Positions 34,656 through 40,880 of a DNA stretch of 64,000 nt are shown piece by piece; position 1 is the stretch's first letter; each line of letters starts with the position of its first letter. The position numbers and the translations under genes were made by a program. The notes beneath the pieces were generated by a model that did no database searches, was not told where the DNA came from, and saw only the letters and a list, made by a program, of their open reading frames with translations. The DNA comes from Bradyrhizobium vignae. GTDB taxonomy: Bacteria > Pseudomonadota > Alphaproteobacteria > Rhizobiales > Xanthobacteraceae. The stretch is taken from the NCBI RefSeq assembly GCF_004114425.1, contig NZ_RDQF01000027.1, positions 1-64,000 on the forward strand. The letters are read 5' to 3'.

Positions 34656-35115
34656 TCACCTCAAAGCGATCGTGATCTGACTGATATTGGCCGCCAGCTC
34701 AAATCCCGCCTTGGGGCCTTGCAGCACCATCGTGACGCCCTTTTCGTTGCGGAGGTGCACACCGTTGGCACCGCCGACCAGCGCAAAGCCGCCGCCAACG
34801 GAACTGTAGGTGCCGGCGAAATCACTGATCTCCCGGATACCGGATGCCCAGCCGACGGCCGACCGTTGCACCGATCGTGATGCCGAAGCTCAGGCCGCTG
34901 ATCTTGAAGGGATAGGTCTTGCCCCGGTACGTCAACACGCCGCTGCCGGCGCCACCGCCGACCAGGAGGCCTGCCTTGACGATCTTCACTCTGACCTGAC
35001 CGGCTGCTTGCGCGAAGGACGGCGTCGCCGGCATGGTCAGCCCGAACGCGAGCAGGAGCAGCGCGATCAGGCGAAATGCGCGCCCGCGCACGCGCGGCTC
35101 AGGGTTTTGCGGCAT
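34656..35115 (-). pseudogene. Frameshifted small secreted glycine-rich protein
   Basis: A paralogue of the protein at 44827-45267, broken by a frameshift. The 5' part (start ATG 35115) has a signal peptide ending ATPSFAQA and then VGGGAGSGVLTYRGKTYPF and SGLSFGITIGATVG, aligned with IGAGGGEGVLLYRGKKYPF and SGMSVGLTIGAS in the intact copy. It then runs out of frame to a stop at 34822, while the homologous continuation (SDFAGTYSSVGGGFALVGG to ISQITIALR) is in another frame ending at 34656. The slip lies about 34850-34880. The gene overlaps the DUF2950 stop by 17 bases and ends that operon. The family resembles EipA/DUF1134 only loosely. A sequencing error cannot be excluded. Confidence 0.75.
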
Positions 35116-36016
35116 CGACCTTCTTCCAGGTCTGGTCGGGATCGAACAGCGTGATGCGCTGCGCGATAGACTCGGTGCGCTTGCCGAGATCCTTCTGATA
35201 GACGACGCCGTCATGATTGACGAGGAAGGTCATGACGCCCGAATTGCCGTATTCCGCCGGCCAGGCGATCAGGCCGAAGCCGCCGATCATCTTGCCTTTG
35301 ACAACGTAGTTGAGCGCACCGCCTCGCGCATCCGGGCCCTGCCCCTTCAGGATGTGGAAATAGTAGCCGTGATACGGCGCAGGCCCGACATCGGCTGCGT
35401 TGTAGCCTTCCCGTGACGCCTCGGCCGCCAGCGCGCCGAGCGGGCTCGGATCGCTGTCGTCGCGCCAGAACAGGCCGTCCTTCTTGCCGGGCGAGGAGAC
35501 GATGCGCTGCGCGTAGACGCCCGCGCCCTCGCCGCGGTCCTTGTCGGCATATTCGTTTTGCGCATCGACATAGGCGAGCATGGTCTGGATCGCGTCGAGC
35601 TCGTTGCGGCCGATACGGCGACGCAGCACCTCGATCCGTCCTTCGTCGGTGTCGAACGCCCAGCCCGTCCTGGTGTTGACCAGCGGAATTGGGAACGGGA
35701 AGTCGTCCGGCCCGAGCATCAGGATCGCAGTCTTGTTGCCTTCTGTCTTGATGACGTGCTTGGTATCATACATGGAGCTGAAGCGCGCCCGAATGTCGTT
35801 GTCGGCGACCTCGTCGCCGGACGACACGATGTCCTCCGCGTTCCTGCCCAGCACTTTCAAGATGTCTTTCGGGCCGCTCTTCACCGCGGCCGCAAGCGCA
35901 GAGGCGGCCTCTTCCGGTGTCTTGTAGGATTCCTGCGCGAGAGAGGGCGATCCGAGCAGCGCGAGCGCGACGACGCCGGGCAGTAGCGCATGGTTAAACG
36001 ATTTCAGACCGGTCAT
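35099..36016 (-). CDS. DUF2950 family secreted protein
   Basis: A 305-residue exported protein. A signal peptide (ALLPGVVALALLGSPSLAQ) is followed by ESYKTPEEAASALAAAVKSGPKDILKVLG, a typical DUF2950 start, and the domain runs to the end with YHGYYFHILKGQGPDARGGALNYVVKGKMIGGFGLIAWPAEYGNSGVMTFLVNHDG. The family has no known biochemical activity. Its ATG overlaps the DUF3300 stop (ATGA), a pairing of these two families that I recall from other proteobacteria. It is expressed from the operator at 37738 with DUF3300. Confidence 0.92.
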   Translation of the reverse strand: MTGLKSFNHALLPGVVALALLGSPSLAQESYKTPEEAASALAAAVKSGPKDILKVLGRNAEDIVSSGDEVADNDIRARFSSMYDTKHVIKTEGNKTAILMLGPDDFPFPIPLVNTRTGWAFDTDEGRIEVLRRRIGRNELDAIQTMLAYVDAQNEYADKDRGEGAGVYAQRIVSSPGKKDGLFWRDDSDPSPLGALAAEASREGYNAADVGPAPYHGYYFHILKGQGPDARGGALNYVVKGKMIGGFGLIAWPAEYGNSGVMTFLVNHDGVVYQKDLGKRTESIAQRITLFDPDQTWKKVDAAKP

Positions 36017-37683
36017 GGCATCACCTCCGCTGGAATCTTCGCGCCGCCGGCGAGCCAGTCGCGATAGGTGCGGAACGTCAGTCCGAGTTTTTCGTAATGG
36101 ACGCGCAGATAGCCGTCGCTGCCGTGGGTCACTGCATCGGGCATGACCTGCTCGACCTCCTGCGCCATCACGCCGACATAAGCCTTGTGGCTGCCGATAT
36201 AGCTGAACCGATAATAGCCAAGGCCATTCGAGAGGTGACCGAGCAGGACGAGATCATGCTTCAGCGCAATGTCGGAACGCCGGCCGCCGCCGCCGCCGCG
36301 GAAGCCGCCTCCTCCACCGCCGCCACGCATCGCCATTCCGCCACCGCCGCCGCGGCCGGCAAAGCTTGGTCCGCCGCCGCCACCGCGCGGCATGCTCGCC
36401 ATGCTGGCGCGGCCGCGCGCGGATGCTGCGGCAGCCGAACGGCCGGAGGAAACGTTCATGGCGCCGCCGCGATTGCCGCCGCCACGGTTGGCCGCACCGC
36501 CGCCGGCGCGGTTCGCAGCCTTGGCGCGATCGCCGCTGCCCTTGGTCGCACCCTTGGCACGATCACCAGCCCCGGCACGATCGCCGCCGCCGGGCCGGTC
36601 GCGCGTAGCTGCGCTGGGGCGATCACCTGCGCCCGGACGGTCGCCGCGATTGCCGGCGCGATCACCTTGGCCGCCGCGATCCCCCGCACGATCTCCCGCC
36701 CGGTCCCCGGCACCCTGATCGGGGCGCAGCACCTGGTTGCCGTCGCGGCCGCGGAAATCCATCCGGTCCGACACGCCGGCCTTCAGATTGTTGTTGCCGA
36801 AGCGCTGCTGAACATTGCTATTGTTGTAGCGTACACCGCCGCGATGCGCCGGATTGTGCTGCCAGCCGTTGGCGATGTTCGTGGTGCGATGGTTGACATA
36901 GACGTTGCGGTTGCCCCAGTTGCAGCCGCCGCCCCAGTAATTGCCCCAGCGTCCGATCGCCCAGGCCGTGCCGAAGGCGATACCGGCGGCGACCATGCCG
37001 GCGCCGATATAGGATGGGTAGCCCCAATAATACGGCGGATACTCCGCATAGGGCCAGCTGCCGTAGACCGTCGCCGGGTCGTAATACGGCACGTACATCG
37101 CCGCGGGATCGGCCTGCTGGATGACGACGACCTGCTTGCCCTCCTGAGACTGGACGCTGACCTTCTGCTGCTTGGTGGTGACGAGCTTCTTGTTGTCATA
37201 GGCTTTGGTGCGCAGACGCTGGATCGCGTCCATCACGTCGGGCTGCTGCGCGAGGAAGGCATCGCCCAGCTTCTTGGTCCAGTCGAGCTGGTCGCTCATC
37301 ATTGCGAGGACGTCGGCGGTGCTGGCCAGCGCCTTGACGCTGTCGTCCCAGCCCTGCTTCTCCACTTCCGTCTTCAGCGCATCGCCCTTCAGGCTCTTGC
37401 GATCCTTCAGCCAACGATCGGCCTGCACAACTTCCAGCGGATAGGTCGATGCAGCCAGTACATTGGCGAGGAGCTCGTCCGGATAAAGCGCAATCGGCGC
37501 AACCAGGGCCTCAAGCTGCTCGGGCTTCAGGAGCTCGGCCGTGGGCATCGGCGGGCTCGCGGGCTGCGCCTGCGGCGCTGGCGCTGGCGCTGCAGGTGTC
37601 GTTGTGGTCTGCGCCGTTGCAGCGACCGAAGTCGCCATCACAAGCACTAGCGCCATCAGGGTGTTGCCGCAACGAAACATCAC
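36013..37683 (-). CDS. DUF3300 protein with GDR-rich linker and C-terminal S74-like chaperone domain
   Basis: A 556-residue secreted protein in three parts. After a signal peptide ending SVAATAQ comes the DUF3300 domain (ELLKPEQLEALVAPIALYPDELLANVLAAS to about residue 265), with an aromatic segment SWPYAEYPPYYWGYPSY. Residues about 320-465 are low-complexity: repeats of GDRAGDRG, then Gly/Ala/Arg runs ending MRGGGGGGGFRGGGGG. The last 87 residues start SDIALKHDL and contain YYRFSYIGSHKAYVGVMAQEV and HGSDGYLRVHYEKLG, which match the intramolecular chaperone (peptidase S74) domain of phage tail spikes and its S-D-x-x-x-K start. If active it would cut itself before this domain. It leads the operon with DUF2950. 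Confidence 0.85.
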   Translation of the reverse strand: MMFRCGNTLMALVLVMATSVAATAQTTTTPAAPAPAPQAQPASPPMPTAELLKPEQLEALVAPIALYPDELLANVLAASTYPLEVVQADRWLKDRKSLKGDALKTEVEKQGWDDSVKALASTADVLAMMSDQLDWTKKLGDAFLAQQPDVMDAIQRLRTKAYDNKKLVTTKQQKVSVQSQEGKQVVVIQQADPAAMYVPYYDPATVYGSWPYAEYPPYYWGYPSYIGAGMVAAGIAFGTAWAIGRWGNYWGGGCNWGNRNVYVNHRTTNIANGWQHNPAHRGGVRYNNSNVQQRFGNNNLKAGVSDRMDFRGRDGNQVLRPDQGAGDRAGDRAGDRGGQGDRAGNRGDRPGAGDRPSAATRDRPGGGDRAGAGDRAKGATKGSGDRAKAANRAGGGAANRGGGNRGGAMNVSSGRSAAAASARGRASMASMPRGGGGGPSFAGRGGGGGMAMRGGGGGGGFRGGGGGRRSDIALKHDLVLLGHLSNGLGYYRFSYIGSHKAYVGVMAQEVEQVMPDAVTHGSDGYLRVHYEKLGLTFRTYRDWLAGGAKIPAEVMP

Positions 37684-39814: not shown

Positions 39815-40099
39815 TCAGCAGCGCGTGACGACGCGGCCATAGGCGTCCACGACCTGCGCGCAGGAGGGCGCATAATAGGCGCCGGCGGCTCCCGCCGCGG
39901 CGCCAACCGCAACCGCTCGGCGTGTTGTTCGACGCGCGACGCCGGCATAGCTCATGGGCGTGAGCGGGCGTCCAACCCTCGCCTGCGCTTCCGAAAGGAA
40001 GCTGCTCTCGCCGATGCCAGGTGCACCATTCCAGGACAGTCCGGCGGCAAAGGCGACCATCGCGGCCGCGCCGATCAAAGTCTTTCGCAGCATGATCAT
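39815..40099 (-). CDS. Small secreted hypothetical protein
   Basis: A protein of about 94 residues with a signal or anchor segment (TLIGAAAMVAFAAGLSWNGAPG) and a short mature part containing two Ala/Gly-rich patches (AVAVGAAAGAAGAYY) and a C-terminal pattern C-A-Q-V-V-D-A-Y-G-R-V-V-T-R-C. The end resembles that of the small protein at 44188-44637, with a Tyr-Gly-x-x-V-x-x-C motif. ATGs at 40099 and 40093 are both possible. The first overlaps the DUF2092 stop by four bases, so it belongs to that operon. No function can be given. Confidence 0.7.
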   Translation of the reverse strand: MIMLRKTLIGAAAMVAFAAGLSWNGAPGIGESSFLSEAQARVGRPLTPMSYAGVARRTTRRAVAVGAAAGAAGAYYAPSCAQVVDAYGRVVTRC

Positions 40100-40880
40100 T
40101 TCTTGGCTCCTGTCGGTGTGCCCGGGGGAAGTTCGTCGAATTCCGCCATCGCGACCGAGTTGATGTCGATCCTGGTGGCGCCGGCCGGTGGCTTGAACAC
40201 GAAGGTGTCCTCGGCAAATGCGTCGGTCTTCCAGTCCCTGATCCGCAACGTGTACTGCGGTGCGCCCGTCACCGTCTTGCTGGTGATCACGTATTTGCGC
40301 GGCACCGGCTTGGCGCCCGTCTCGATCCAGATCTGCCAATCGGTGTCGGGCGTGCGAAATGCGAGATGCTCGCACTCGACGCCGTCGACCACCCCTGCCC
40401 GATATGCTTCCCGTCGGTGGCCGTACCCATCAGTTCCTCGAATGCGTTGGTGAGCAGCAGATCGGTGCCGGGCATGCCGAGCCCGGAATGGGCCTGCATC
40501 TCGCCGATCATCTGGTCCACCGTGCCCGCCATCTCGGCCTGCATGTAGGATTTGGCGTCGTTGCCGTAGAGCGAGAGCGTCTTGCCGTCATAAACCAGCT
40601 CGACATCCGCATAGCCGCCGGTGCGCCTGACGCGGAGCTTGTCGGGCCTGCCCAGCTTGACCTGTCCGGAGCTCGCGAACTGGATCTTCTGAAGTTCGGG
40701 CGTGATGATCTCGATGTCGCTGTCGAACGAGGCGGACAGGGTGTTCTGGCTGGTCAGATAGTCCGTCATCGATTTCAGGATCTTGGCCGGATCATCGGCG
40801 TGCGCGGGCGAGGCCGCCGCCAGCAACAGAGCCGTGCCGAAGCCAGACAATGTGGTACGAAGGGTTGGTGTTGATCTCAT
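40096..40880 (-). pseudogene. DUF2092 secreted protein gene, frameshifted
   Basis: The protein is a DUF2092-type periplasmic protein of the LolA/LppX-like fold class. The start is the ATG at 40880, with an excellent GAGGAGGAT Shine-Dalgarno and a signal peptide ending ASPAHAD. The first frame runs to GTATDGKHIGQG and then turns to unrelated sequence until a stop at 40287. The homologous continuation VDGVECEHLAFRTPDTDW and on to TPTGAKK lies in another frame ending at 40096. One base is missing, or several gained, near the run GGGCAGGGGTGG at 40392-40404. Both halves keep good codon use, so the lesion is either recent or a sequencing error; if the latter, the intact protein has about 260 residues. 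The operator at 40933 precedes it. Confidence 0.8.

Follow-up and report, generated by a model that had tools for sequence, protein, structure and literature searches.

In MyRF (MYRF), a membrane transcription factor of animals, three C-terminal alpha4 helices (N670-K705) of the ICA domain form a coiled coil that drives trimerisation, and cleavage requires this trimerisation (passages in PMC8326128). The cut takes place just before the serine (P586|S587) and is abolished by the substitutions S587A or K592A (same passages of PMC8326128). A passage of PMC3742443 that compares ICA domains describes the serine and the lysine as absolutely conserved. Bacterial proteins may also carry such domains, known as S74. 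According to part of PMC10769870, the Bdellovibrio surface protein Bd3182 cuts itself at S782 of its SDxxxK motif and S782A blocks the cut, and S74 domains have also been reported in operons of contractile injection systems (passage in PMC8213781).

DUF3300 is a protein family without known function. Together with DUF2950 it has been listed among candidate plant-interaction determinants; the two are described as universally co-localised in root nodule bacteria and as having signal peptides, and two RNA-seq studies on rhizobial symbiosis are reported to have found the pair induced (passages in PMC4653623). The yacH gene of Escherichia coli is a CpxR-regulated DUF3300 gene, and the deletion strain reportedly withstood protamine better than the wild type (passage in PMC9600279). 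S74 is not mentioned in these passages on DUF3300 (PMC4653623; PMC9600279), and none of the papers searched names both "DUF3300" and "S74". Here we describe a DUF3300 protein of Bradyrhizobium vignae that ends in a short S74 tail.

Organization of the gene and the protein

The DNA analysed, referred to below as the window, is a stretch of 64,000 nucleotides (contig NZ_RDQF01000027.1, positions 1 to 64,000 of the forward strand). An open reading frame is present at 36013-37683 on the minus strand and runs from 37683 to 36013, with a GTG start and the stop codon at 36013-36015; the encoded protein (36016-37683, minus strand) has 556 amino acids. A preceding inspection of the letters, here called the sequence-only reading, had proposed that DUF3300 is fused to an S74 domain in this protein, and indeed both domains gave Pfam matches above the cut-off in the one 556-residue chain. 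In the source genome each of them matches once.

Residues 1-25 (37609-37683, minus strand) are hydrophobic and look, by eye, like a signal peptide. The DUF3300 domain (PF11737; residues 54-276; 36856-37524, minus strand) was matched with an E-value of 4.1e-80 and 269 bits against a cut-off of 25, and its AlphaFold2 model (window 36784-37560) is confident with a pLDDT of 88.9. Neither Foldseek at E 0.001 nor VIA-align at a Z of at least 2 found anything similar to this model in the PDB, and thus no function can be deduced from the DUF3300 fold. It is followed by a linker of GDR repeats and poly-glycine, as the sequence-only reading had described, which covers residues 277-467 (36283-36855, minus strand). 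Arg468-Arg469 (36277-36282, minus strand) come directly before the 87-residue ICA-type S74 tail (36016-36276, minus strand), which consists of 61 residues up to the end of the VxY motif and 26 residues without a coiled coil.

The downstream DUF2950 gene (35099-36016, minus strand; 379 bits in Pfam) overlaps the stop of the DUF3300-S74 gene by ATGA. NCBIfam had no match for either gene, and sequence searches with the two proteins returned nothing convincing.

Identity and fold of the S74 tail

Peptidase_S74 (PF13884) matched residues 470-519 with an E-value of 5.1e-6 and 27.1 bits against a gathering score of 22, spanning all 58 model positions; the profile hit anticipated by the sequence-only reading is thus significant. 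The best PHROGs match of the tail was phrog_6121, annotated "virion structural protein" (E 9.1e-17). Modelled alone (89 residues), the tail reached a pLDDT of 88.8 in AlphaFold2. Among predicted viral structures Foldseek found 13 matches at E <= 0.001 (best E 1.3e-5), seven of which are named "intramolecular chaperone auto-processing", and the predicted structure of the tail shows the ICA core fold. Against solved structures in the PDB the model gave no Foldseek match at E 0.001. When the Foldseek PDB candidates were re-ranked with VIA-align, the MyRF ICA structure 7dc3 came first with Z 3.6, followed by an unrelated kinase at Z 3.2. The single tail sequence retrieved nothing from the PDB sequences (the best E, 0.07, belongs to an unrelated protein), and the tail profile found only a phage long tail fibre (E 0.14) and MyRF (E 0.23), both of them weak matches. 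The tail matched 23 of 50,697 phage records, and several of these bear the annotation of a structural or an S74 protein. A likely source of the domain is thus the virion and DNA ejection proteins of phages (phrog_6121, phrog_4287).

The tail starts with S-D-x-x-x-K. Ser470 (36274-36276, minus strand) is located where the sequence-only reading had put it and is, from its conservation and the mechanism described in passages of PMC8326128, the predicted nucleophile; Lys475 (36259-36261, minus strand) follows from the sequence and, being conserved, is its predicted partner in the dyad. The predicted cut lies between residues 469 and 470, as proposed before, and the present comparisons support this as the likely site.

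The same reading had also expected a helical trimer fold, and here the results differ, as the helical trimerisation element is missing from both the sequence and the tail model. No counterpart of the C-terminal coiled-coil helix of MyRF (alpha4, N670-K705) was seen in the tail sequence or in its AlphaFold2 model. Conserved glycine and proline occur among the 26 residues after the VxY motif, and the helices of the model in this part are only four and six residues long. Directly upstream of the serine, no triple beta-helix stalk is seen in the sequence, since the poly-glycine/GDR linker reaches the serine. The classical route to a trimer is thus unsupported, and because the C-terminal coiled coil is missing, trimerisation of the tail is doubtful.

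A short ending is common among related tails. By eye, a coiled-coil continuation is obvious in only two (L048 and L057) of the 65 S74 tails listed. The same list holds 13 phage-type proteins (four of them, L044, L162, L165 and L051, confirmed by PHROGs and the remaining nine assigned by eye), none of which has a coiled coil; 12 of the 13 end 6-17 residues after the VxY motif and one, L045, ends after 37. Judged from these sequences, the short form of the tail is common to phage virion and DNA ejection proteins.

Distribution of the fusion

A scan of genome contigs with the tail alignment gave 274 relatives, the best 80 of which were kept. By their titles these 80 comprise 75 Bradyrhizobium, two Bradyrhizobiaceae bacteria, a Rhizobiales bacterium, Afipia birgiae and "Frankia sp. 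RB7". DUF3300 and the tail are in one frame at 74 of the 80 loci; of the remainder, five are cut by contig ends and one has the two in different frames. The latter, L076 (3710-4261; Bradyrhizobium barranii subsp. apii), may reflect a frameshift or a sequencing error. In the record titled Frankia sp. RB7 the tail is 91% identical, and DUF3300 and DUF2950 are arranged as in Bradyrhizobium; mislabelling or contamination is our guess. DUF2950 was found downstream in all of these best 80 of 274 loci, its match starting within about 100 bases of the tail end. In the stretches examined around some other DUF3300 loci, DUF2950 was not seen.

In a family sample of 198 genomes, 56 had DUF3300 and 41 had the tail. 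The two were in one frame at 22 fetched loci, each in a different genome, and at a second locus of genome G184 as judged by its coordinates. Within the genus of the window, 8 of 11 genomes in this sample have DUF3300 and all eight carry the tail on a DUF3300 copy; G153 holds an additional copy without the tail. The phylum sample (398 genomes) contained DUF3300 in 59 genomes with the tail on it in eight, namely seven from the genus of the window, the source genome included, and one (G380) from another family of the same order. The DUF3300-S74 fusion is a standing feature.

The tail is found on other proteins as well. The same short S74 tail ends five proteins that contain a caspase domain (shown by Pfam for L150; L154, L156, L158 and L159 alike by eye), L031 carries it on a ricin-type lectin with PT repeats, and an S74-like tail with a score of 20.8, just below the cut-off, is seen on an outer-membrane beta-barrel protein (L153). 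Several smaller proteins in which Pfam shows no partner domain also end in the tail. With several unrelated carriers, the tail reads as a mobile C-terminal module of the family and not as a peculiarity of DUF3300. The open frames of the five caspase-domain carriers are 749-846 amino acids long and contain, besides the caspase domain and the tail, a stretch of Ala/Ser-rich repeats. Two small secreted-looking proteins (L021, L026) have the sequence GVARRTTRR and then pass through VVRR|SDMMLK into the S74 tail. A further small secreted-looking protein, encoded in the window at 39815-40375 on the minus strand, has GVARRTTRR and no tail.

Sequence constraint on the tail

Among 72 of the 74 in-frame loci, the median pairwise dN/dS was 0.162 in the tail and 0.103 in DUF3300; the linker, which is of low complexity and unsurely aligned, gave 0.115. 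The tail is under selection, yet dN/dS does not set it apart from the linker; as a means of distinguishing the two the ratio failed, being higher in the tail than in both other parts.

Ser, Asp and Lys of the motif are invariant in all 72 in-frame sequences, and their codons contain synonymous changes. They are likewise invariant in the 29 rows of the tail alignment, from which L030, a locus cut by a contig end, is omitted. A pattern for tail length presupposes SD, so conservation was counted with the profile alignment instead. The tail profile aligned 68 tails of the family and phylum samples, including those of the caspase-domain carriers and phage proteins. In the 66 tails that cover the dyad positions Ser, Asp and Lys are always present (66/66), in contrast to position 41, which is Gln in 59 of the 68. 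The profile itself had been built from 29 of the 68; among the 39 others the positions are covered in 37 and occupied by Ser, Asp and Lys in all 37. Since the profile favours tails having these residues, the count leans towards conservation.

The Arg-Arg junction

Arg-Arg stands directly before the serine at all of the best 80 of 274 loci, against a background of 12 Arg-Arg among 7610 dipeptides in the 100 residues that precede the junction. The same pair is the natural C-terminus of many homologues without S74. Among the 44 complete S74-less DUF3300 proteins of the family (50 loci minus five that are cut and one with a masked stretch near the end, which was kept as S74-less in the DUF3300 tree), 25 end in Arg-Arg and 29 in two basic residues, Arg-Arg making up 0.3% of the dipeptides in the last 100 residues of such proteins. 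Elsewhere in the phylum the proportion was 15 of 27, from 29 of 66 places, all among the best-scoring loci, minus one cut and one S74-bearing. An Arg-Arg end is absent from 19 of the 44 and from 12 of the 27. Three proteins whose ends probably reflect a frameshift or read-through (L138, L170, L233) were retained in the counts. These counts ignore kinship, and related sequences are not independent, for which reason p-values were left aside. As controls, 3 of 191 neighbouring ORFs and none of 34 window ORFs (at least 250 amino acids, picked mechanically) end in Arg-Arg. Apart from the question of S74, an Arg-Arg C-terminus is common in the examined DUF3300 proteins from several families of the phylum (L209-L237, L138-L206).

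Before tails on carriers other than DUF3300, Arg-Arg was seen in 5 of the 37 listed, and two of these five (L025, L028) probably represent DUF3300 genes truncated where a contig ends. The comparison of homologues shows the tail junction to be the putative ancestral Arg-Arg end of DUF3300. MyRF is cut immediately before its serine, and the same cut in the DUF3300 protein would produce a Gly-Arg-Arg terminus like that of many S74-less relatives.

A quick tree of 73 DUF3300 domains, which carried a long-branch warning, requires five changes in the presence of S74, three of them forced by starred branches. The DUF3300 domain of L040 is distant, yet its tail is nested among the tails of the family. 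From these two observations, the tail seems to have been gained or lost repeatedly at the same point. A tree built from just the tails has little resolution, with 7 of 61 inner branches starred. A profile scan behind the S74-less DUF3300 genes revealed no S74 remnant, the one match being due to chance (E 3.9); recent loss of the tail by a stop codon is thus not visible.

A proposed self-removing cap and its alternatives

The explanation that we favour, and to which we give an even chance, is that an envelope or secreted DUF3300 protein of Bradyrhizobium and its relatives carries the short, coiled-coil-free S74 domain as a removable C-terminal cap. The protein would be exported, as its N-terminus suggests, and the tail would fold around its own N-terminal strand. 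Ser470, helped by Lys475, would then attack, and the predicted cut between Arg469 and Ser470 would release the 87-residue tail. The mature DUF3300 protein would end in a Gly-rich stretch and Arg-Arg, like many of its S74-less relatives, and may act together with the co-encoded DUF2950 protein. The timing of cleavage and the role of the Arg-Arg end are what we infer for this scheme. Self-cleavage of the tail itself may equally well occur or not, because the invariance of the dyad and the position of the junction favour it and the missing coiled coil opposes it. The self-cut of Bdellovibrio Bd3182 is a precedent among bacteria. Ser, Asp and Lys could be kept for structure instead of cutting, and it might be the needs of the cutting reaction, not a role as C-terminus, that preserve Arg-Arg.

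It is possible, although clearly less probable, that the tail stays on and serves as a module for oligomerisation or docking, a conserved tag at the C-terminus of several proteins with a structural Ser/Asp/Lys turn. Without the trimer coiled coil, the trimerisation on which the MyRF cut depends may not take place, and the same short tail sits on such unrelated proteins as the caspase-domain carriers, the outer-membrane barrel, the ricin-type lectin and the small proteins lacking a Pfam partner. Such a module, however, leaves the exact junction behind Arg-Arg without a reason, and serine and lysine are kept in all 66 covering tails while other positions vary. The C-terminal position, the flexible linker and the diversity of carriers would also suit a sorting signal for a surface or export system which another protease takes off at Arg-Arg, much as C-terminal sorting tags are removed. 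This we regard as unlikely, as Arg-Arg is absent before 32 of the 37 tails listed on other proteins and the tail is folded like a self-cutting domain. The least credible reading is a decaying phage fragment attached by chance read-through. The nearest viral relatives of the domain are indeed phage virion proteins and many DUF3300 proteins lack it, but a tail dN/dS of 0.162, well below 1, and an invariant dyad argue against decay, as does the in-frame arrangement at 74 of the best 80 of 274 loci (of the other six, five are contig-cut and one frameshifted).

The self-removing cap could also be more general, namely a coiled-coil-free S74 device on alphaproteobacterial secreted proteins which, on DUF3300, masks a widespread, functional Arg-Arg C-terminus until the tail folds or meets a partner and then leaves without a scar; for this wider version our expectation is low. 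Should the short tail indeed cut itself, S74 cleavage would be independent of the coiled-coil trimer found essential in MyRF, and a folding device of phages would serve bacteria as a cap that leaves ordinary envelope proteins without a scar. The Arg-Arg end of DUF3300 would then also look functional.

Comparison with known systems

YacH and other DUF3300 proteins have the DUF3300 domain in common with the protein described here, and an Arg-Arg end is frequent in the homologues examined, YacH itself not being among them; S74 is attached to DUF3300 in only 8 of the 59 DUF3300-bearing genomes of the phylum sample. The MAT fibres of Bdellovibrio (S74 and NS74 groups) are likewise bacterial proteins that occur with and without a terminal S74 and share SDxxxK, but they are trimeric beta-helix fibres, and DUF3300 is not reported for them in the passages of PMC10769870. 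The MyRF ICA is also part of a cellular protein and uses the Ser-Lys dyad. It differs from the tail of the Bradyrhizobium protein in its alpha4 coiled coil, its beta-helical stalk and the cut at P|S.

The S74 (ICA) domains of phage endosialidases and neck appendages share with the tail the core profile, the SDxxxK start, the GVMAQEV and GYLxVxY motifs and the C-terminal position, whereas the tail has neither the C-terminal coiled coil nor a preceding triple beta-helix and is located on a chromosomally encoded bacterial DUF3300 protein. The best PHROG matches of the tail (phrog_6121, phrog_4287) are short S74 domains in virion and DNA ejection proteins of phages, and these likewise have no coiled coil. 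They belong to virion proteins and differ from the tail in having no GLxFxTYxDW end segment.
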